Shown here: positions 3,279 to 24,524 of the stretch, piece by piece
How positions within the stretch are numbered: position 1 is the stretch's first letter
How the letters are laid out: each line of letters starts with the position of its first letter
Source of the DNA: a virus
Direction: 5' to 3' (one strand)
Length of the DNA: 32,117 nucleotides
Virus record (IMG/VR): IMGVR_UViG_3300047157_000004
Location: 1 to 32,117 of that record
Program-made: the position numbers and the translations under genes
The notes under the pieces: model-generated
What the model saw: the letters and a program-made list of their open reading frames with translations, nothing else
The model's database searches: none
Told to the model about the DNA's origin: nothing

Positions 3279-4819
3279 TGGATAAAACAGCCAAGCAGTA
3301 CATACAGAAGTATGAGAAAGCCAAGTCCTTTCGCGAGAACTGGGTTCCGTTGTTTGAGGAGTGCTATGAGTATGCACTGCCTCAACGTGAAAGTTTTTAC
3401 GCTGAAACTGCTGGGCAAAGACGCGATGATCGCATATTTGACGAGACTGCGGTGGTTGGTGTTCAAGAGTTTGCTAGTCGCCTCCAATCTGGGCTTGTAC
3501 CTAATTTTGCTAGGTGGGCTGATCTCATGGCTGGTAGTGAAGTTCCTCCAAATCAGCGCGAATCTGTTGATAACGAGCTTGACGAAGTAACAGAATACGT
3601 CTTTGAGATACTACAAAACTCCAACTTTAGCCAAGAAGTACACGAATCCTTCATGGATTTAGCTGTTGGTACTGGTGTTTTATGCGTAGAAGAGGGCGAT
3701 GCACTCAATCCTGTCAACTTTTCTGCCATACCGTTGCCTCATGTGGTGCTAGATACTGGCCCAGATGATAGAATTGACCACGTTTTTCGTGAAAGAAAGG
3801 GCGTAAAGTACGATCATCTAGCTATGATGTACCCAAATGGTACGCTTGATCCTAAAGTTATGAACTATATGGGGTCAGATAAGACAACAACTGTGCTAGA
3901 AGTTATATGTCGTGACTATTCTGTAAAGAATGAAGAGGCTTATCTAAGCTATGCGTTCTGTATGACTACAAATACTGTACTAAATTACAAACAAATGAAG
4001 GGTAATGGCTCAAATCCGTTTATATGCTTCCGTTGGTCTAAGTGTGCTGGCGAAGTTTATGGTCGCGGCCCATTAATTAACGCATTATCTGCTATAAAAA
4101 CTACAAATCTTACCATTGAAATGATACTTGAGAATGCACAGATGGCTATCTCTGGCATATACCAAATGGAAGATGACGGCGTAATAAACCCAGATACAAT
4201 ACAGTTAGTCCCAGGATCTATCATACCAAAAGCTATGGGATCTAGCGGATTGCAGCCTATTCGTGCAGCAGGGAACTTTGATGTAGCCCAGTTAGTGCTA
4301 GGTGATATGCGTCAAAACATAAAACGTGCGTTATATAACGATATGTTAGGCAATCCAGACAAGACACCAGCGTCAGCAACAGAAGTAGCAGAGCGTATGG
4401 CAGACCTTTCTAGGCGCATGGGTGCTGCTTTCGGTAGGTTACAAGCTGAATTAGTCCAACCAGTGCTACAGCGCGTTATTTACATCCTTAAAAAGCAAGG
4501 ACGCATTGATGTACCTACAGTAAATGGACGTGAAGTTAAGATACGTTCGGTTTCTCCGCTAGCTCAAGCGCAATCTAACCAAGATATTTCTAGTGTTGGA
4601 CGCTTCCTTGAGATGGTCGCTGGTACATTTGGGCCAGAGATGTTGCAGCTACTTATTGATGGCGAACAAACAGCTATACATCTAGCTAAAAAGTTTGGCG
4701 TTCCTGAAAGCTTGATTCGCGATGAAGAACAGCGTAAACAAATAGCTGCATTAGCGCAACAAATGGCGCAACAACAAGCGCAGCAACAGCAAGGTGAGAT
4801 GGTTGAACAGCAAGGTTAA
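3278..4819 (+). CDS. Portal protein, T7 gp8-like head-tail connector
   Basis: The 513-aa protein forms the dodecameric ring at the capsid vertex through which DNA is packaged and ejected. The N-terminus KQYIQKYEKAKSFRENWVPL and the YALPQR, FASRLQSGLVPN and FMDLAVGTGVL segments are hallmarks of the T7-type connector (PF12236). PASATEVAERMADLSRRMG lies in the helical stem region. The C-terminus is Gln-rich (AQQMAQQQAQQQQ). Length is close to T7 gp8. The start shares bases with the upstream stop (TAATG). Confidence 0.95.
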   Translation: MDKTAKQYIQKYEKAKSFRENWVPLFEECYEYALPQRESFYAETAGQRRDDRIFDETAVVGVQEFASRLQSGLVPNFARWADLMAGSEVPPNQRESVDNELDEVTEYVFEILQNSNFSQEVHESFMDLAVGTGVLCVEEGDALNPVNFSAIPLPHVVLDTGPDDRIDHVFRERKGVKYDHLAMMYPNGTLDPKVMNYMGSDKTTTVLEVICRDYSVKNEEAYLSYAFCMTTNTVLNYKQMKGNGSNPFICFRWSKCAGEVYGRGPLINALSAIKTTNLTIEMILENAQMAISGIYQMEDDGVINPDTIQLVPGSIIPKAMGSSGLQPIRAAGNFDVAQLVLGDMRQNIKRALYNDMLGNPDKTPASATEVAERMADLSRRMGAAFGRLQAELVQPVLQRVIYILKKQGRIDVPTVNGREVKIRSVSPLAQAQSNQDISSVGRFLEMVAGTFGPEMLQLLIDGEQTAIHLAKKFGVPESLIRDEEQRKQIAALAQQMAQQQAQQQQGEMVEQQG

Positions 4820-5063
4820 TATTGGAGTCGATGGTTATCAGAGAGCTACAAGTCAAGATCTCCAGATTAGCCAGAATATTGCTGAAACATTTAGTACCCC
4901 TGCTGGTGAGGCTGTCTTAAAGTATTTGCGTTCAGTTACTATTGAAATGGTACATGGGCCTAATGTGACCACAGAAGAACTAAGACACCATGAAGGTCAG
5001 CGTTATATCGTTGGCCTTTTAGAGCGTCGAGTATCACATGCACATAGGAGTAAAAACAAATGA
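4794..5063 (+). CDS. Small protein between portal and scaffold, 89 aa
   Basis: The frame overlaps the end of the portal gene by 26 bases using a GTG at 4794; a TTG at 4803 is another possible start. The product contains FSTPAGEAVLKYLRSVTIEM and EELRHHEGQRYIVGLLERRV. This pattern (TP-G..VL..L, then H-EG-R--V--I-RR) resembles short Bbp19-like proteins in the structural cassettes of podoviruses. The role is not known; its position suggests a minor head or assembly factor. The stop overlaps the scaffold start at 5060 (ATGA). Confidence 0.65.
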   Translation: MRWLNSKVNIGVDGYQRATSQDLQISQNIAETFSTPAGEAVLKYLRSVTIEMVHGPNVTTEELRHHEGQRYIVGLLERRVSHAHRSKNK

Positions 5064-5791
5064 ATGACATACCAGTAGGATCAGAGCAGTCTACACATGG
5101 TGAAGCAGAAGAGCGTGACTTCGTAGTTGCTGAAGACGCGGCTCCAGCTAGACCAGAATGGTTGCCAGAAAAATATAAGAGTGGTGAAGATTTAGCTAAA
5201 GCTTATAAAGAACTAGAGTCTAAGCTAGGCACTAAAGAAGAAGATCTGCGCGCACAGTTTAAAGAAGAATTTGACTCTAGCAAGAATGCTGATCGCCCTG
5301 CATCTGCTGGTGAATATGCATTACCAGACTTTGTAGATGATGAAGAAGCAGTTGATAACGAGCTATTAAAGTGGTGGGCTGAACAATCTTACGACAATGG
5401 GTTTGGTCAAGATAAGTTTGAAAAAGGTATTGAGATGTATCTTCAAGCATTAGATGGGTCTGCTCCTGATCTTGATGCTGAAGCTGCAAAGCTAGGGGAG
5501 AATGCAGATCAGCGTATTGAGTCAGCTTCAATGTTCGCTACTAAGTTCTTCCCTAGCGAAACTATGCCAGCAATCGAGCGTTTGTTTGAAACGCATGAAG
5601 GTATTGTAGCTATGGAAGCCATACAAGAAGCTATGAAAGATGGCTCATTTGCTGGTGACGCTACCCCTGCAGCTGGTCTTTCAGAAGATAGCTTAAAGGA
5701 AATGATGCAAGATCCTAGGTACTGGAGTAAGAATGATCCAGCATTTGTTCGGCAAGTAGAGGCTGGCTTTAAGAAGCTTTATGGAAGCTAA
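5060..5791 (+). CDS. Capsid scaffolding protein, T7 gp9-like
   Basis: A 243-aa, very acidic protein lying between portal and capsid, as scaffold genes do. It holds RPEWLPEKYKSGEDLAKAYKE followed by Glu/Lys-rich predicted helix, PASAGEYALPDF, and a C-terminal segment (DPRYWSKNDPAFVRQVEAGF) ending in basic residues that in this family contact the coat protein. Scaffold guides procapsid assembly and leaves before DNA enters. There is no frame break. The stop overlaps the next gene by 11 bases. Confidence 0.88.
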   Translation: MNDIPVGSEQSTHGEAEERDFVVAEDAAPARPEWLPEKYKSGEDLAKAYKELESKLGTKEEDLRAQFKEEFDSSKNADRPASAGEYALPDFVDDEEAVDNELLKWWAEQSYDNGFGQDKFEKGIEMYLQALDGSAPDLDAEAAKLGENADQRIESASMFATKFFPSETMPAIERLFETHEGIVAMEAIQEAMKDGSFAGDATPAAGLSEDSLKEMMQDPRYWSKNDPAFVRQVEAGFKKLYGS

Positions 5792-6302
5792 GATAATAAA
5801 GCGTGGTAATTTTTACCTAACGCCATTTACAAAAGACCATGTTGAAGAAGTAATTTCTAACTTGAGTCCAGAAAATGTCAGGGAGATAAATCTCCTTGGC
5901 TATCATAACGTCAGAGAATGCATTGAAGAGATGATGAAATACTCTGATTGCTACCTAGTACGCAAAGAGGGTGAGGTATTTACTGCAATATCTGGTCTTT
6001 GGTACGAGGATGGCAGAGAAGCACCACAGTTTTTTGCAATGTTTTCTAAGAATATTAAGAAAAACTTTACATCTATAGCGCGTGGATCACGTATGTTAAT
6101 AACATTTTTTGATAGAACACAGGACGAAATGTGTATGCGTATATTGAGCGATCACCAGTTTATGTTGGATTGGGCAGCATGGTTAGGCTTTGAAGCAATA
6201 GGTGTAACTGAGTTTAATTCTAATCACTATGTTGATTTTGTGCGTTGCATTTCCCCACAAAAAAGTGCTTATAGTGAAACATCACGGCCCGTCGTGCACT
6301 GA
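5781..6302 (+). CDS. GNAT-fold-like phage protein (T7 gp13 / DUF2833-like)
   Basis: A 173-aa protein reading LTPFTKDHVEEVISNLSPEN, VREINLLG, FTAISGLWYE and FAMFSKNI, with a late LDWAAWLGFEAIGV segment. The order matches phage proteins of the gp13/DUF2833 type, which have an acetyltransferase-like fold but often lack a proven enzyme activity. In T7, gp13 assists internal-core assembly. Here the gene lies between scaffold and capsid rather than after the tail tubular genes. A minor acetyltransferase role is an alternative. Confidence 0.75.
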   Translation: MEAKIIKRGNFYLTPFTKDHVEEVISNLSPENVREINLLGYHNVRECIEEMMKYSDCYLVRKEGEVFTAISGLWYEDGREAPQFFAMFSKNIKKNFTSIARGSRMLITFFDRTQDEMCMRILSDHQFMLDWAAWLGFEAIGVTEFNSNHYVDFVRCISPQKSAYSETSRPVVH

Positions 6303-17119: not shown

Positions 17120-19683
17120 ATGACAATAAATATAGCTAACAACAACCCACGAATAAACTACACAGCAACATCTGGTCAGACTGTGTTTACAGTTCCGTTT
17201 GAGTTTTTTGATAACACAGACATAAAAGTTTACATCGAGGGTACACTAAAGACAATTACTACACATTATTCAGTTTCTGGAGGAAATGGCTCTACAGGGA
17301 CTGTAACTATGTCTGCTGGTGTTACGTTAAATGATGAGGTAACGCTTGTCAGGGACGTTCCTATGGAGCGTACAACCGATTTAACGTCCAGTTATAACGC
17401 CGCGTCTATAGATTCGCAGCTAGATCGCATTGTTGCAGAGATTGCAGACCTTGATGATCGAGTGTCACGAACAATACAAATTAATGACTATGAGTTGGCA
17501 AGTGGTTTACTCCTCCCTGCACTTGACAGCCGCAAAGGTAAGACTATCCAATTTAACACCAGCTCTGGTGCTTTAGAGGTTGGCCCTACTGGCGCGGATT
17601 TAACAGCAATCGGTTCAGTTACCTCTGAGATTGCTACATTAGCTGGAATTAGTAGTAATATCACTACTGTTGCTGGCTCTAATGCGCAGGTTGTTGCTGT
17701 TGGTAATGCTATGACTAGCATTACTGCGGTAAATTCTGCGCTTACTAATGTAAATACTGTAGCTGGAGGTATAGCTAACATCAATTTAGTTGGTGGATCT
17801 ATTGCTGATGTTAATGATGTAGCTGATTCTCTTGGTGAAATCTCTGCGGTTCAAGCAAAGTTAACAAATATAGATACTGTAGCTGTTGCATCTACAAATA
17901 TAGGCTACAGTAGCAGGGTCTATAACACAAATTAACAACGTAGCTTCTAAGATTGCTGACGTTACTGGTGTTAATAGCTAATATAACAGCAATAACTACA
18001 GCCAATGCAAACTCAACTAATGTTAATTTAGTTGCTAATAGCATAGATGACGTTAATGATATTGGTAATGTAATAACTAAAGTAACAACAGTTGCTGATA
18101 ATATTGCTAATGTTAATGCTGTTGCCATTAGATGAATTTACTGATATTTATTTAGGTAGTAAATCTGTTGCACCAACAGTTGATAATGACGGCAATGCAT
18201 TAGCAACAGGTAGTATTTATTGGAACTCTTCAGTTGACCAACTTTATATTTGGGATGGGTCTGCATGGGATGATGCTGCCTTTACTGCATCTGGTGCTGT
18301 TACATCTTTTAATACTAGATCTGGTTCTGTTACACTAAGCTCTGCTGACGTTACTAATGCAGCTGGATTGCTTAGAACTGGCGGCACAATGACAGGAGAC
18401 TTGTCATTCGGTGACAACGACAAAGCCATATTCGGTGCTGGGTCTGATTTACAGATTTATCACACTGGGTCAGCAAGTCGGATTCAAGATATAGGTACAG
18501 GCAATCTTTATATTGCTGGTACACACTTACAGCTTACCGATGCAACAATATCTAACAATTATTTACAGGCAGTGTCTGGTGGCGCAGTTACAATTTACCA
18601 TAGCGGTGACGGCAAACTAGCCACAACATCAACAGGTATTGACGTAACTGGCACAGTTACCAGCGATGAGTTGACTGCAAATAATGGTGGAAGCAATACA
18701 AATATAAGATTGCAGAATACAAACTCTGGTTCTGGCTCAGCGGATGGCTTTCTTATTCAGCACGCTACCAATGCGCATACTTATGTTTGGAATTACGAAA
18801 ACGCAGACACAATATTTGGCACCAACGGCACAGAACGTATGCGCATCGACTCATCAGGCCGAGTTGGTATTGGGACAAGTTCGCCTAAAGATACTTTACA
18901 TTGTGTAGGGTCTGATGGAACTACTGGACGCACAGCTTATCAAGGTGCAACAGAGTTTATATTTGAAAATAATGGCGCATTTTCTTTAGACTTATCAAGT
19001 GGTAATTCTGATGCTGTTTATATAAATTGGCACGATACGGACGCTGTTCAGCAAGGTTGGATTAATTATGACCATAATGGCGATTTTATGCGGTTGGCTA
19101 CCAACGGCGCAGAACGTATGCGCATAGCCAGTGATGGCGCAGTTATTATCAATAATTCTGGTGGTGACTCGCAGATTTACTTAGGCGGCACTTCGGGCAG
19201 TAACAGGATGTATCTTGCTCGTTCTGGCAACGACACCTTTTTGTGGAACGCGGATAGTGGTGTTATGCGGTTTGGCACTAATGACACAGAAGCCATGCGC
19301 ATCGACTCATCAGGCCGTGTTGGGATCGGAGCAAGTAATAATTCTTCATACGACTCTAATGCACAAAATCTTCTACTAGCATCTTCTGGCAACACTGGTA
19401 TGACTATCAGAAGTGCTGGAGCTGCACCATATGCAATGATTCACTTTGCAGATGGAACAACTGATAATAATACTAAAAGAGCTGGTAGAATTATATATCA
19501 GCATGATGGTGATAATCTAACTATACACACTGCAAATACAGAAAGTTTAGTCTTTCTGGTGATCCAGTTTCATCTACTATTAGGTATAACCCTCTCAGAG
19601 ATTGGGTTGGGACAGGTGGCAATAACGCCACGATAAACAAAGGAGGCCAATATGGCACTAACAGAAACAACAGTAGAAGATAA
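17120..19683 (+). CDS. Tail fibre protein with T7 gp17-type N-terminus (several frame breaks)
   Basis: The first 110 or so residues (YTATSGQTVFTVPFEFFDNT, DEVTLVRDVPMERTTD, DSQLDRIVAEIADLDDRVSR) form the tail-attachment domain of T7-type fibres. A stalk of roughly ten-residue N-I-x-x-V-A-type repeats follows (17600-18125). The distal part starts with YLGSKSVAPTVDNDG and contains repeated ERMRIDSSGRVGIG-type units. The coding frame shifts by +1 near 17906, 17978 and 18127, and by -1 near 19555. With these corrected the protein reads about 854 residues, to TAA at 19681-19683. No S74 chaperone domain is visible. An RBS (GAGGTG) precedes the ATG. The fibre determines host binding. Confidence 0.85.
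18839..18861 (+). repeat. Direct repeat copy 1 in tail fibre
   Basis: A 23-bp segment encoding MRIDSSGR is repeated exactly at 19295-19317, 456 bp (152 codons) away, so it is in frame. A degenerate third unit (ERMRIASDG) lies near 19117. The repeat is more GC-rich than its surroundings. Confidence 0.8.
19295..19317 (+). repeat. Direct repeat copy 2 in tail fibre
   Basis: An exact 23-bp match to 18839-18861, in the same reading frame. It could serve as a homology seed for exchange of fibre segments between phages. Confidence 0.8.
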
Positions 19684-19944: not shown

Positions 19945-20136
19945 ATGAATAAAAGAACTATATCTTCTGCGCATGACAGGCTTGACGAGTTAGAAAAGCA
20001 AGTGGTTGCAATTAAAACAGAAGTTAAGATACAATTTAAAGATCTATTTGGTCGAGTTAAACGTATGGAAAGCATTATGATTGCAGCAACAGGAGCAATA
20101 CTAACCCTACTCGTTGCGGTACTAATGAAAATGTAA
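19945..20136 (+). CDS. Small coiled-coil membrane protein, XhlA-like
   Basis: A 63-aa protein with an N-terminal coiled coil (DRLDELEKQVVAIKTEVKIQ) and one C-terminal membrane span (MIAATGAILTLLVAVLM). This layout matches XhlA-type hemolysin or holin-accessory proteins. AGGAGG at 19931-19936 fixes the start. It may help in membrane permeabilisation or hold a partner at the inner membrane. The stop is followed immediately by the next ATG. Confidence 0.65.
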   Translation: MNKRTISSAHDRLDELEKQVVAIKTEVKIQFKDLFGRVKRMESIMIAATGAILTLLVAVLMKM

Positions 20137-20137
20137 C

Positions 20138-20692
20138 ATGTTACGAACAATATTAATTGGTTTGTTTATCTTAATCGGCAGCAGTCTTGCTGCTGATGAC
20201 ACAATCTACACTGATACTAACAGTACAATAACCTCTGATGGGTCGATGGATACTACTATTAATAGTCCACCACCCTCTGCAATTTCTCCCCAGATTAGCG
20301 CAAGTAACTCTGACTTATGTACTGTTGGTGTTGCTGGTGCTGTGCAGACACAGATACTTGGTATCTCTGCTGGTCGTACTGTTAGAGATATGAACTGTGA
20401 AAAATTAAAGAACGCCAAAACCATGTATGATATGGGGATGAAAGTTGCAGCCGTATCTGTAATGTGTCAGGACGAAAGAGTGTTTGAAGCCATGCTTAAT
20501 GCAGGTACGCCCTGTCCCAAGGATGGGTTGGTAGGTGATAAAGCTAGGCTAGCATGGGAAATGGAAGCGGTTAAAGAAGAGATTGAGCGTGATCAAAACA
20601 ATGTAATCAAGAGAGTCTTTGATAAAAATGGTGAAACAAAAATTGGTTTGGGTGTTATCTTTAGCACTCTTGCCTTCTTACTTGCACTCTGA
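20138..20692 (+). CDS. Exported protein with signal peptide and C-terminal membrane span
   Basis: A 184-aa protein beginning with a clear signal peptide, MLRTILIGLFILIGSSLAA|DD. A Thr/Ser-rich linker, a Cys-containing domain (SDLCTVGVAGAVQTQILGIS, MNCEKLKNAKTMYDMGMKVA, VMCQDERVFEAML, TPCPKDGLVG) and a hydrophobic C-terminus (LGVIFSTLAFLLAL) follow. Four cysteines suggest periplasmic disulfides. Related proteins occur in marine podoviruses without known function. It starts the exported-protein block. Its last 65 bases overlap the signal peptide of the next gene in another frame. Confidence 0.75.
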   Translation: MLRTILIGLFILIGSSLAADDTIYTDTNSTITSDGSMDTTINSPPPSAISPQISASNSDLCTVGVAGAVQTQILGISAGRTVRDMNCEKLKNAKTMYDMGMKVAAVSVMCQDERVFEAMLNAGTPCPKDGLVGDKARLAWEMEAVKEEIERDQNNVIKRVFDKNGETKIGLGVIFSTLAFLLAL

Positions 20693-21491
20693 TCCCTATA
20701 GTTATGGGGCTACAGGTAACGCTGCATCTAGTTCACTAAGCTGGAGCATGACAGGTGTGCTACCTGATGCATCTGGCATAGATATAAATGGTTTGATCTA
20801 TAGGTACACCACAGTAAAGAACACTGAAGATGATATGAAGGTACACGTTGGTAATCAATGCTAATGGCATGGCTATATCTTTCAGAGAGACTGATGATTG
20901 GTCAGGTGTCCCAAGCAATACAATCGTTAAGTCTTTTAATCTTAGCAATATACCAGCTGCTAATTGGGGTACTGGTTCTATTGAAGTAGAGGGAGAGGGC
21001 AGCGTTAAGGATGCAGTTGTTATTTATAACTACAGAATAGATAGATGCTTTGACCCACAGTCTGATCCTACGTGTGCTGGATATGTAAAGCCAATGCCTG
21101 TTATACCAGTAGTAGATAGTGTATGATGCATTAGAAGATGATGCTGTGAGTTGAGACACTAGAAGCTGATGAGTTTCAGTATGATGAAGATGGTAATCTA
21201 ATTCTTAGTGAAGAAGAGGAAGAAGAAGAAACTAGAATTGAGATGGGGTTAACTGCATCTGCCAATGCGCTGACTCTATTCAAGACACAGGGACAAGATG
21301 ATATTATACTAGCTATCAATCAACAAACAAATATAGCTATGTACTACAATGCATCTATTAATGGTGGCGTATATGCTGACGCTGCTGGTCTTGCTGATTC
21401 AGAGATAGCTGACAACAAGAAAGCCTTGCGCAATAACTTAGCACAACAGATACTGCATGAACAAATGGTTGATATGCAGTACAACAAATGA
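20628..21491 (+). CDS. Secreted protein with signal peptide (three frame breaks)
   Basis: ATG at 20628 (or TTG 20619) gives the signal peptide MVKQKLVWVLSLALLPSYLHS|DPYSYG. The coding frame shifts by +1 near 20852, 21118 and 21152. After correction it reads through RETDDWSGVPSNTIVKSFNL, NYRIDRCFDPQSDPTCAGYV and a Glu-rich stretch (SEEEEEEETRIEMGL) to TGA at 21489-21491, about 286 residues. The C-DPQSDPTC-GY motif is frequent in marine phage exported proteins. The family has no known function. The cysteine pair and signal peptide predict a folded periplasmic or outer-membrane protein. Confidence 0.65.
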
Positions 21492-21988
21492 GGTTTAACA
21501 TGAAATATTCTTTGGCAATACTTTCACTCTGTGCATTACCAGCATACGCTGACGTAGATATTACAGGTAACGTGGCAGCTAAGTGTGTAATACAAACAAC
21601 TAAGAGCTGGTGTGTATGGCAATCCAAGTGCAGCAGTCTAAGCACCGCCCCTGCTGATGGTGGTGTACTCCCTGTCATTAGATTTGATGTAGCTCTTGCT
21701 AATTACTACACCGCAAACATTACACACCCAACAGCATTTAGTTCTTCTCCAGCACTAACTGATACAGTGGCATGGACAGGCAGCACGAGCGTAACACAAA
21801 CAAGTGACGCTGGTATGTCAGGCTATGATGCAGCCAAGGTTGTATACGATAATACTACTGTGTTTGATCTAACTGTTGCTGGGTCTACATGGTTCTCTAC
21901 ATCTAGTACCGCTACCTATGCTGCATCTAAACCATTCTCAGGTGGGGTTTATACGGCAGTCGTACAGGCTAGTTGTGTTGCAAAATAA
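21488..21988 (+). CDS. Secreted, pilin-like (CS1-type?) protein
   Basis: A 166-aa product starting at ATG 21488 (ATGA overlap; ATG 21500 is also possible). The signal peptide is MKYSLAILSLCALPAYA|DVDITGN. The mature part starts with ITGNVAAKCVIQT and ends YTAVVQASCVAK, two cysteines placed as in beta-sandwich pilins, with YDLTVAGSTWFSTSSTATYA in between. I suggest a fimbrial-subunit-like fold; this is inference from the pattern. Residues encoded at about 21604-21640 (SWCVWQSKCSSL) look foreign, and the +1 frame there gives GVYGNPSAAV, so a compensating pair of indels is likely. Confidence 0.65.
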   Translation: MRFNMKYSLAILSLCALPAYADVDITGNVAAKCVIQTTKSWCVWQSKCSSLSTAPADGGVLPVIRFDVALANYYTANITHPTAFSSSPALTDTVAWTGSTSVTQTSDAGMSGYDAAKVVYDNTTVFDLTVAGSTWFSTSSTATYAASKPFSGGVYTAVVQASCVAK

Positions 21989-22346
21989 GCTGATAATATT
22001 TTTTTTGCTATGGGCATTTTCATCCCATGCACATGAGATGACACCAGCTTATCCTGTTGTTAAACCATCTCACGTTACTGGTGTGGTCAAGGTAGACTTG
22101 TCCTTGTTTAACTCAAGGGAAGAGATCAAGTATTATCAGATAGATATATTTGATTTGAACTGGAAGAACATTCCTTTCTCTGCAACGTACAGAATAATTA
22201 AGGTAGGATACCAATCGCGTAAGAACTTTACTGTGTATTTACGCAAGTCAGATATGGATGAAGCTGTGTATGTATGCACAACATCCAAGGTTAAGAAGCA
22301 ACTCCAATCAAAAACCCTAGTGTCTTCTAGATTTGCTCTCGACTAG
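21978..22346 (+). CDS. Secreted protein, possible periplasmic chaperone-like beta sandwich
   Basis: TTG at 21978 (GTG at 21975 is an alternative) starts inside the end of the previous gene. The signal peptide is MQNKLIIFFLLWAFSSHA|HEMTPAYP. The mature protein has VVKVDLSLFNSREEIKYYQI, FDLNWKNIPFSATYRIIKV and SRKNFTVYLR, a strand pattern reminiscent of the first Ig-like domain of pilus chaperones but shorter. About 122 residues. It follows a pilin-like gene, which supports but does not prove a chaperone-subunit pairing. Confidence 0.6.
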   Translation: MQNKLIIFFLLWAFSSHAHEMTPAYPVVKPSHVTGVVKVDLSLFNSREEIKYYQIDIFDLNWKNIPFSATYRIIKVGYQSRKNFTVYLRKSDMDEAVYVCTTSKVKKQLQSKTLVSSRFALD

Positions 22347-22359
22347 ATGGTATGCCAGC

Positions 22360-22755
22360 ATGAGGTTAGCTGCACTCTTATGTATTGTGTCTAGCTCTGC
22401 TCTTGCTGAGAGTAGTTCGTTGGCATTAACACTGCCCAGCCCACCTATGAATTACCAATCAGATAGTTTCTCTGCAAATAATTTACGCTGCAGCAATGCG
22501 GTAGGTGGCGGTATCAATCTTGAGTATGGTGTCACAGGTGTACTATCTAACCTAGACACAGCACAACGTGGTAAAGATATAGGTGTGTATGCTCGTATTG
22601 TTATACCCTTGGATCGTCCTAAGTCTCGCATTAACTGTGATGATCTATACCAAGTAGAGCTAGCACAACGTAGGCTAGAGATACAAAAGCTACGCGATGA
22701 ACTAGAAGCCTTGAAGAATTTACAAACAGATAGCAGCATGGACTTTGAAAACTAA
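22360..22755 (+). CDS. Secreted protein with C-terminal coiled coil
   Basis: ATG at 22360 gives the signal peptide MRLAALLCIVSSSALA|ESSSLAL; an upstream TTG at 22333 would destroy the signal, so I prefer the ATG. The mature part contains NNLRCSNAVGGGINLEYGVT, VYARIVIPLDRPKSRINCDD, two cysteines, and a final helix (LAQRRLEIQKLRDELEALKN) likely to form a coiled coil. 131 residues. The family is recurrent in marine phages and is uncharacterised. The stop overlaps the next start (TAATG). Confidence 0.7.
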   Translation: MRLAALLCIVSSSALAESSSLALTLPSPPMNYQSDSFSANNLRCSNAVGGGINLEYGVTGVLSNLDTAQRGKDIGVYARIVIPLDRPKSRINCDDLYQVELAQRRLEIQKLRDELEALKNLQTDSSMDFEN

Positions 22756-23234
22756 TGGTAGATCTCACAGAATTTGATGGACTTGCTGATAAAAAAATTA
22801 GTGCTGGTGGCTTTAAGCTATCGGCTGCATCCGTCTTTGCAATCATTACCTTTGTATCTACTGTGGTTGCTGGCCTGTATGGTGGGTTCGTTATGTACCA
22901 GAAGATAGAAGAGGTAGCTGGCTTAGACCTAGGAGAATACCAGCAGCAAATGGATTTGATGGATGCGCAAGTACAACAGACAGTTGACTATACCCGTGAT
23001 ATTAAGAATGGATTGCGTGATGATCTTCTTAGGGTTGAGCAGCAATCAGATCGTGTCGAGTCGTTGGTGCGCAAGACAGAAGAGAAGGTACGCAGTATGA
23101 TAGATGCAGCAGATCTTAGATTTGAATCGCAACGCGAACGCTTGCGATCAAACCAAGATGCTGAAATGAAAGACCTTGAAGATAAATTGATGGGTAAATT
23201 GCAGAAGGCATTGGACAATCCTTTGTCTGATTAG
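22755..23234 (+). CDS. Membrane-anchored coiled-coil protein
   Basis: A 159-aa product with one membrane span near residues 22-48 (AASVFAIITFVSTVVAGLYG) and a long charged coiled coil to the C-terminus (RDDLLRVEQQSDRVESLVRK and onward). The layout, an inner-membrane anchor plus a long helical stalk just upstream of holin and endolysin, resembles inner-membrane spanin components. Without a lipoprotein partner in view that is a suggestion only. The start is coupled to the preceding stop. Confidence 0.6.
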   Translation: MVDLTEFDGLADKKISAGGFKLSAASVFAIITFVSTVVAGLYGGFVMYQKIEEVAGLDLGEYQQQMDLMDAQVQQTVDYTRDIKNGLRDDLLRVEQQSDRVESLVRKTEEKVRSMIDAADLRFESQRERLRSNQDAEMKDLEDKLMGKLQKALDNPLSD

Positions 23235-23243
23235 GAGAGTAAC

Positions 23244-23555
23244 ATGGATGAGTTTAAAAAATTTGATGTCAATGGTGATGGACATATTGATAAAGCAGAA
23301 TGGGATGCACTTGAGTACGAGGATCGTAAGCGTAGGCTAGAGGACGAAGACGCTCAACGGGATGCACAACGTAAGATGACATGGTTCGCCCTGTCAGGGA
23401 TGCTCCTGTACCCCTTGGCGGTGGTGCTGGCAGATCTATTGACTTTAGTTGAGGCTGCTAAGATACTTGGTAGCATGGCAAGCGTGTATTTTGTATCGGT
23501 TGCTGGTATAGTTGCTGCGTTCTTTGGTGCGTCAGCGTTCTCGAAAGGAAAGTAA
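23244..23555 (+). CDS. EF-hand membrane protein
   Basis: A 103-aa product. Residues 8-19 are a canonical EF-hand calcium loop (DVNGDGHIDKAE; D8, N10, D12, H14 backbone position, D16, E19). A charged helix and two hydrophobic segments follow (FALSGMLLYPLAVVLADLLT and VYFVSVAGIVAAFFGA). The combination suggests a calcium-responsive inner-membrane protein next to the holin. AGGAGAG precedes the ATG. It could be a holin modulator or a second holin; no close family is recalled. Confidence 0.7.
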   Translation: MDEFKKFDVNGDGHIDKAEWDALEYEDRKRRLEDEDAQRDAQRKMTWFALSGMLLYPLAVVLADLLTLVEAAKILGSMASVYFVSVAGIVAAFFGASAFSKGK

Positions 23556-23556
23556 T

Positions 23557-23904
23557 ATGCTTGGACTTGGATTGATAGGTAAGGTTGCTGATCTTGCTGG
23601 TGCTGTCATAGATTCGAAGGCTGTTGTTAAGAAGGCTGAAGCTGAGACTAAGATGAAGCTTGCAACTGGTGAGATCTCTTGGGAGCAAGCAGCAATCAAG
23701 GCCAGCGAGAATAGCTGGAAGGATGAGGCTTGGACTGTATGCTTTATTGCAATCGTTGCGTGTTCATTTGTTCCACCGCTGCAGCCCTATATGAAGGAGG
23801 GCTTTGCTAATCTCGAAGCTGCGCCGCAGTGGTTTCAATGGTCATTGTATGCCAGCATAGCAGCCAGCTTTGGTATCCGTACTATGAAAGGATTTAAAAA
23901 ATGA
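23557..23904 (+). CDS. Putative holin (3TM type)
   Basis: ATG at 23557, just after the previous stop and preceded by GAAAGGAAAG. 115 residues: MLGLGLIGKVADLAGAVIDS, a basic-acidic middle (EISWEQAAIKASENSWKDE), then hydrophobic segments (AWTVCFIAIVACSFVPPL and WFQWSLYASIAASFGI). The arrangement matches the GTA/phage 3TM holin family. The end overlaps the endolysin start at 23901, as holin-endolysin pairs usually do. Confidence 0.75.
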   Translation: MLGLGLIGKVADLAGAVIDSKAVVKKAEAETKMKLATGEISWEQAAIKASENSWKDEAWTVCFIAIVACSFVPPLQPYMKEGFANLEAAPQWFQWSLYASIAASFGIRTMKGFKK

Positions 23905-24524
23905 GTGAGGCAATGAAGATATTGCAAGATCGTATCGGTGCATCAGCCGATGGGAACTTTGGCCCCAACACAGCGAGAGCAATCGTTGATTACTTTGGTT
24001 TGTCTCGTAAGCGTGGCGCACATTTGTTAGGTCAGGCAGCACATGAGTCAGGAATGTTTCGCTTAACCAGAGAGAACCTTAACTATTCTGCTGAGTCTAT
24101 GATGCGTGTGTGGCCTAAAAGATTCCCAACTATGGAATCGGCTGCACCTTATGCGCGTAACCCAGAGGCACTAGCTAACAAGGTGTACTCTAATCGCATG
24201 GGCAATGGAGAAAACGAAGGGGCGTTATGGGTCGGTCGCGGCTTCATCCAGTTAACAGGCAAGGCAAACTATAGAGCTTTCGCTAGTGACATGGGGCTGC
24301 CTGATGTAATGACTGACCCTGATCTTGTTGCAACTGAGTACGCATTTGAATCTGCCATGTGGTTCTTTGAATCCAATGGCTTGTTTAATATGGCTGACGA
24401 TGGTGTGAATGATTCAGTTATCACTAGCATAACCAAGCGTGTGAATGGTGGAACGCATGGTCTTGATGATCGCATGGAGCAGACAAAGAAAATACATTCT
24501 TGGATTGCACACGTTGGCGTATAA
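23901..24524 (+). CDS. Endolysin, GH19 chitinase-like lysozyme
   Basis: A 207-aa product with no signal peptide. An N-terminal segment (LQDRIGASADGNFGPNTARA) looks like a short peptidoglycan-binding turn. The catalytic core has HLLGQAAHESGMFRLTRENL, with E49 and E58 as the likely acid and base, then GRGFIQLTGKANYRAFASDM, the GH19 signature, and ITKRVNGGTHGLDDR near the end. It degrades peptidoglycan at lysis, released by the preceding holin. It is the last rightward gene. Confidence 0.92.
   Translation: MSEAMKILQDRIGASADGNFGPNTARAIVDYFGLSRKRGAHLLGQAAHESGMFRLTRENLNYSAESMMRVWPKRFPTMESAAPYARNPEALANKVYSNRMGNGENEGALWVGRGFIQLTGKANYRAFASDMGLPDVMTDPDLVATEYAFESAMWFFESNGLFNMADDGVNDSVITSITKRVNGGTHGLDDRMEQTKKIHSWIAHVGV

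Follow-up and report, generated by a model that had tools for sequence, protein, structure and literature searches.

A conserved block of exported proteins in marine phages with a one-domain PapD-related protein and a predicted pilin-like partner

The run of exported-protein genes lying between the tail fibre and lysis genes of a marine phage reads best as one functional unit, and we put at about even the chance that it is a late, exported and usually lysis-linked module remodelling the envelope or surface of the infected cell, with a g3-g4-g5 core that is the phage version of an unrecognised, usher-less chaperone/pilin-like locus of bacteria. The window, that is the whole stretch of DNA analysed, is a viral record of 32,117 bases (IMGVR_UViG_3300047157_000004) with terminase, portal, head and podovirus-type tail genes. 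Its closest isolate by terminase is Pelagibacter phage EXVC031P Hodr (61% identity), in whose genome the g1-g6 module was not found. Genes g1 to g8 all lie on the + strand between the tail fibre region and a GH19 endolysin (Table 1).

Table 1. Genes of the exported-protein block and its surroundings (window positions)
Gene	Position	Strand	Features
g0	19945-20136		63-aa coil, C-terminal TM; weak XhlA/hemolysin-like PHROG match
g1	20138-20692	+	signal peptide, four-cysteine periplasmic domain, C-terminal TM segment
g2	20628-~21491	+	signal peptide, CxDPQxxPxC pair in N-terminal region, acidic linker, conserved C-terminus
g3	21488-21988	+	signal peptide, pilin-like subunit by fold search
g4	21978-22346	+	signal peptide, predicted single-domain PapD-type chaperone
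g5	22360-22755	+	signal peptide, two conserved cysteines, amphipathic beta segments, C-terminal helix
g6	22755-23234	+	N-terminal TM anchor and coiled coil; i-spanin-like in topology only
g7	23244-23555	+	EF-hand plus TM segments
g8	23557-23904	+	TM protein matching phrog_2524, a family without assigned function
endolysin	23901-24524	+	GH19 chitinase-like; last gene of operon

An earlier, sequence-only reading had pointed to five consecutive signal-peptide genes at 20138-22755. Judged by a simple heuristic (n-region charge plus an AxA-like site), g1 to g5 indeed carry export signals on the + strand: the n-region charge is at least +1 in 26-28 of 28-31 members for g1 to g4 and in 21 of 21 for g5, and the AxA-like site is found in a share of members that ranges, by gene, from 26 of 28 (g2) to all. 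The tight overlaps that it described are present, membrane proteins do follow the block (g6 with its TM segment and coil at 22755, and the TM protein g7 at 23244), and its estimate of some 2.6 kb, about 8% of the genome, agrees with the 2.6 of 32.1 kb, or 8.2% of the window, computed here for g1 to g5. The conserved C-terminus of g2 is QQILHEQMVDMQYN. At the edges of the block, g0 was present in just 23 of the initial 143 sequences examined, g7 is a usual neighbour of the module outside its invariant core, and g8 would be holin-like from its position. Proteins combining an EF-hand with TM segments recur near marine-phage lysis genes (window 23244-23555; L226 3870-4226) and are possibly calcium-sensing, holin-like proteins.

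The association of these genes is not due to chance, since their order is kept in every relative long enough to show it. Scanning viral contigs with g3, g4, g1 and g5 yielded some 300 loci, many of them overlapping on the same contigs. Every locus with g1, g2 and at least 1 kb of downstream sequence also carries g3 and g4 (223 of 223, many sharing contigs), and all six genes occur in the order g1-g6 in 161 of 161 eligible non-Vibrio loci, many again sharing contigs, with g6 always the last of the six outside Vibrio phages. Thus the conserved synteny in other marine phages that would be expected of a joint system was found, and independent occurrence of the genes was not seen in those 161 loci. 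The gene order holds even in the remotest members, where g4 is down to 34-37% identity. The phage backbones differ (podovirus-like, T4-like and others): one locus (L059) has head genes of another type, another (L131) a tail fibre gene and fibre assembly genes, and some adjoin T4-like gp32/gp59. Many loci have tail or fibre proteins with no detectable similarity to those of the window; in the majority of these, g3 is 76-97% identical.

Several genes of the record are damaged. Relative to L001 and L002, which are 94-95% identical to it in nucleotide sequence and keep their frames intact, the record has frame-shifting indels at 20856, 20868, 20883, 21118, 21148, 21607, 21631 and 22330. Accordingly, g2 is split across three frames here and is a single ORF in the relatives, and the end of g4 is lost to the indel near 22330, where the relatives' g4 frame continues and overlaps the start of g5. 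In g3 the frame is shifted and restored locally, so that residues ~40-48 read SWCVWQSKC, nine garbled residues. The two extra cysteines in g3 are therefore artefacts of the frame shift; its genuine pair, in alignment numbering, is C29/C159. The tail fibre gene (17120-19636) is also split, with indels at 17905 and 17978-17979 relative to L009 and L021; both halves match one ORF in relatives (L004), so sequencing or assembly indels occur outside the block too. Programmed frameshifting in g2 was considered and rejected, as the indels affect several genes at scattered sites and close relatives lack them. As g2, g3 and g4 of the record are damaged, intact relatives were used for all family analyses.

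No Pfam family recognises g3, g4 or g5, Pfam and PHROGs searches of g0 to g8 gave no function for g1 to g5, and a profile search of PDB sequences was negative for g2, g3, g4 and g5. Likewise, the literature searched held no description of the g3-g4-g5 trio. Profile comparison nevertheless shows that g4, a single-domain protein, and the N-terminal domain of the PapD-family pilus chaperones are related. Aligned by hhalign with 17 bacterial PapD_N sequences, phage g4 scores z 11 (z 5 for each clade alone) and bacterial g4 z 19.6 (75%, E 2.5e-5), where z is measured against column-shuffled controls and cross-controls give z 0-1.7. The alignment is in register with PapD N-domains and the predicted strand order matches. 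The AlphaFold model of g4 (pLDDT 82, seven strands) predicts an Ig fold; such folds are common, and the top Foldseek match is a copper SOD subunit (8aca), with PapD-family chaperones (SfaE, FimC, Caf1M, FaeE) dominating the list from rank 2 down at E 1e-3 to 1e-2 and the FimC-FimI complex among the matches. Phage and bacterial members share residues P25, N45, D95, C102 and C118 without exception, and the last two strands bear one cysteine each, a pairing similar to that of Caf1M-type chaperones. Including its signal peptide, g4 measures 115-138 residues in phages and bacteria alike; it lacks a second domain and differs from a two-domain chaperone of ~230 residues. The possibly chaperone-like protein that the sequence-only reading had placed in the block is thus g4, by its PapD_N profile score and the fold search.

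The pilin-like member proposed in that reading would be g3, by predicted fold and gene partnership and not by sequence. Its model is mediocre (pLDDT 67), and Foldseek matches it to FimG, CfaB, PapA and CsuA/B at E 5e-3 or weaker. Membership of the SCPU pilin family was tested by profile comparison and is unsupported (z 1.2-1.6, not significant). The mature N-terminus of g3, DVDITGNVEAKC, resembles the donor strand of CsuA/B, AVTGQVDVKLNIST, which was checked as the solved CsuA/B sequence; this likeness is suggestive only. The block gave no match to known virion or spanin families, ordinary folds of which would have spoken against a module. The third member of the trio in both phages and bacteria is g5, the sole third gene common to all carriers.

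The module extends to Vibrio phages in the form of its core. This link was found through g5, as tblastn of g3 and g4 against phage records gave no direct match. The g5 search matches 42 Vibrio phage records and g3 alone 179. In Vibrio phage Hades gp143, gp144 and gp145 correspond to g3, g4 and g5 and are followed by a short lipoprotein, a holin and an M15 endolysin; all seven of the Vibrio phages read (58-127 kb) keep this order of the trio, and most of them also share the g3/g4 overlap of the window. Profile comparison of g3 with its Vibrio counterpart by hhalign gives 96% (E 3.5e-9). Taking the g5 scan and the Vibrio regions together, g3-g4-g5 is present in 86 of 89 loci, the remaining three being short or split. 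A large protein always precedes the trio in the seven Vibrio phages, and the four such proteins scanned all match phrog_10818. In the seven Vibrio phages g5 is followed by the short lipoprotein (SGCTxNxxIDTDYA; L229 4227-4430, L230 5854-6030, L233 5020-5205 and L235 5077-5262), and next comes a small conserved gene (SPDxExxxEAI).

The trio is also carried by bacteria. With the g5 profile it was found in 10 of 398 sampled Pseudomonadota genomes (L373 and L386-L394), one of the ten being the centre of that sample; in L373 it lies on the reverse complement at 4566-5931. Profile comparison shows bacterial and phage members to be homologous (g3 89-98%, g4 94%, z 17-48), strongly so for g3 of marine phages, Vibrio phages and bacteria. 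GC-rich genomes have the order pilin-like, chaperone, g5, with a further pilin-like gene behind g5 in some of them; in the remaining genomes the order is chaperone, g5, pilin-like. Neighbours, named by eye from sequence, include cytochrome P450, enoyl-CoA hydratase, PEP synthase and its regulator, acetate kinase and adenosine deaminase. These metabolic and regulatory genes indicate chromosomal, not prophage, sites for most of the bacterial loci; L393 also has a serine recombinase nearby. A scan of the genome collection with g4 returned one metagenome-bin contig and one chance match, and a g5 match in G052 was a false positive. The metagenome bin found with g4, a Rhodobacteraceae bin (G001), holds contigs with g1 or g5 of the module (C64, C76, C105, C121, C174 and C176) from several different phages; at 37-39% GC, they are probably phage contigs binned with it and give a weak hint of the host.

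PapD-type chaperones normally need an outer-membrane usher. The usher family PF00577 was matched in none of 28 phage records and gave no match in 7 of the 10 trio-bearing bacterial genomes, records that may be incomplete in both cases; of the other three, two have a match over the cut-off elsewhere in the genome and one a match below it. If g4 and g3 do act as a chaperone-subunit pair, delivery has to rely on a different component. The natural candidate to stand in the usher's place is g5, as no other third gene is shared by every carrier. Like chaperone-usher pili (PapD, FimC and Caf1M chaperones; Fim, Pap, CFA/I and archaic Csu pilins), the module pairs an exported subunit with a periplasmic chaperone in adjacent genes, and its subunit fold is predicted to be pilin-like too. 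It differs in that the chaperone is a single domain, that the phages and most trio-bearing bacteria gave no usher match, that there is an extra conserved partner, g5, that no Pfam family matches the trio, and that phages carry it in a late operon.

Under this scenario, g4 would bind and stabilise g3 in the periplasm, and g3 would then be released into a polymer or complex. With its cysteine pair, beta segments and coiled coil, g5 may receive or anchor g3 in place of an usher, and g1, g2 and g6 may link the complex to inner membrane and periplasm. Expressed together with the lysis genes, such a complex would alter the infected cell's envelope or surface just ahead of release, its product most likely being a surface or periplasmic fibre or scaffold. 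In its fullest form, which we put forward tentatively as possible but short of probable, bacteria and phages share a new usher-less pathway in which a one-domain chaperone hands a pilin-like subunit to g5 as the outer-envelope partner, and phages of several morphotypes use it, with g1, g2 and g6 added, to erect a structure on the cell as it dies.

A structure on the infected cell, at its surface or in the periplasm, fits the evidence best, and a precedent exists in the curli (type VIII secretion) cassette of pelagiphages, a multigene surface-structure cassette that has moved between phage morphotypes (PMC9599517). The likeness lies in the proposed role, a surface-structure cassette in marine phages, but the proteins are unrelated: Pfam searches of g0 to g8 found no CsgA/B, CsgF or CsgG match. 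If the proposed reading is true, phages rebuild the host surface late in infection, as with that cassette, and a chaperone/pilin-like system works without the usher held to be essential. Such a system, which occurs in 10 of the 398 Pseudomonadota genomes sampled and abundantly in marine phages, would have escaped the family libraries that were searched. For a block of hypothetical genes that marine phages conserve strictly, this reading would offer a testable function, with the Vibrio phages and bacterial loci as culturable models. Of the envelope-modifying role first proposed, then, the joint exported module is upheld by its conserved order and its pilin- and chaperone-like members, and the purpose (exclusion, masking or an appendage) is not distinguishable by sequence, which accommodates a fibre, a scaffold or weakening of the outer membrane alike.

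That last possibility underlies a rather unlikely alternative, in which the module assists lysis by breaking or weakening the outer membrane where a phage lacks classical spanins, with g6 as the inner-membrane coil and g1 to g5 as the periplasmic or outer-membrane parts. Of 50 non-redundant loci, 33 have an endolysin some 4 kb or less downstream, from one of three mutually unrelated families (GH19, 23; GH108, 8; M15, 2). Therefore the module is usually made with lysis genes, the T4-like carriers being exceptions, and this adjacency, seen in about two thirds of the loci, is also compatible with a part in lysis. Moreover, the g1 gene of pelagiphages and roseophages is often near lysozyme genes, and g6 has an i-spanin-like topology and a weak Rz-like PHROG match (E 0.065). 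Like two-component spanins, the module is late, lysis-linked and equipped with a predicted membrane-anchored coiled coil, and Vibrio phages add a short lipoprotein after g5; however, a simple lipobox scan found no o-spanin lipoprotein in the window, which in this alternative would match a spanin-less phage, and the module core is chaperone/pilin-like and also bacterial. We know of no spanin that features a chaperone/subunit pair. A pure lysis role is less likely because bacterial chromosomes carry the trio outside a prophage context, and some module loci adjoin T4-like replication genes, not lysis genes. In a published census, recognisable spanins are absent from 91 of 677 phages, but Vibrio phage pVp-1, which bears the trio, is listed there with a two-component spanin (PMC6139136).

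Unlikelier still is a role in superinfection exclusion or receptor masking, whereby the exported proteins would block the phage's own receptor or coat the cell against sibling adsorption. Receptor-blocking proteins such as T5 Llp and phi80 Cor are familiar, the module follows the tail fibre gene in the window, and the Vibrio trio sits between the large phrog_10818 protein and the short lipoprotein. Something that blocks a phage-specific receptor should, however, co-vary with the fibre, and such a blocker is less likely because g3 stays constant across dissimilar tails. In L059 and L067 the genes upstream of the module are head genes, not fibres, the late position is not ideal, and the lipobox scan of the window found no lipoprotein.

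We think it improbable that phage g3-g4 poisons or caps host chaperone-usher pili, as FimI does in ending type 1 pili, so that a receptor is lost or aggregation changes. The FimC-FimI complex is among the fold matches, and of 142 genomes sampled from the class of G001, 13 carry SCPU genes and 13 carry PapD_N genes; yet such pili are absent from most sampled genomes, 7 of the 10 trio-bearing bacteria gave no usher match, and g1, g2, g5 and g6 are left unexplained. Least probable is a place for the proteins in the virion, as parts or as decorations acquired outside the cytoplasm during release. Their late position and a putative carbohydrate-binding protein among g2 and its pelagiphage analogues might suggest this, but all carry signal peptides, bacterial chromosomes hold copies and no structural PHROG matches.

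The g1 domain is also found in SAR11 and Roseobacter phages (HTVC202P, HTVC115P, HTVC033P, HTVC023P, Mosig, Baldr, CRP-207 and CRP-810), where it is followed by a larger, often exported protein; g3-g4-g5 was not found in these phages. The pelagiphage pairs also have a TM-coil gene, as does the module. Across SAR11 and Roseobacter phages this pairing of g1 with a large, mostly exported protein with acidic linkers is recurrent (L143, L144, L145, L148, L224, L225 and L226), often near lysis genes, and some of these large proteins have an N-terminal carbohydrate-binding-like domain (TNGNFETGNxxGW). Genes for HlyC-like lysine acyltransferases recur in marine-phage late regions near the module, as in L144 (11243-11692) and in four further downstream proteins.
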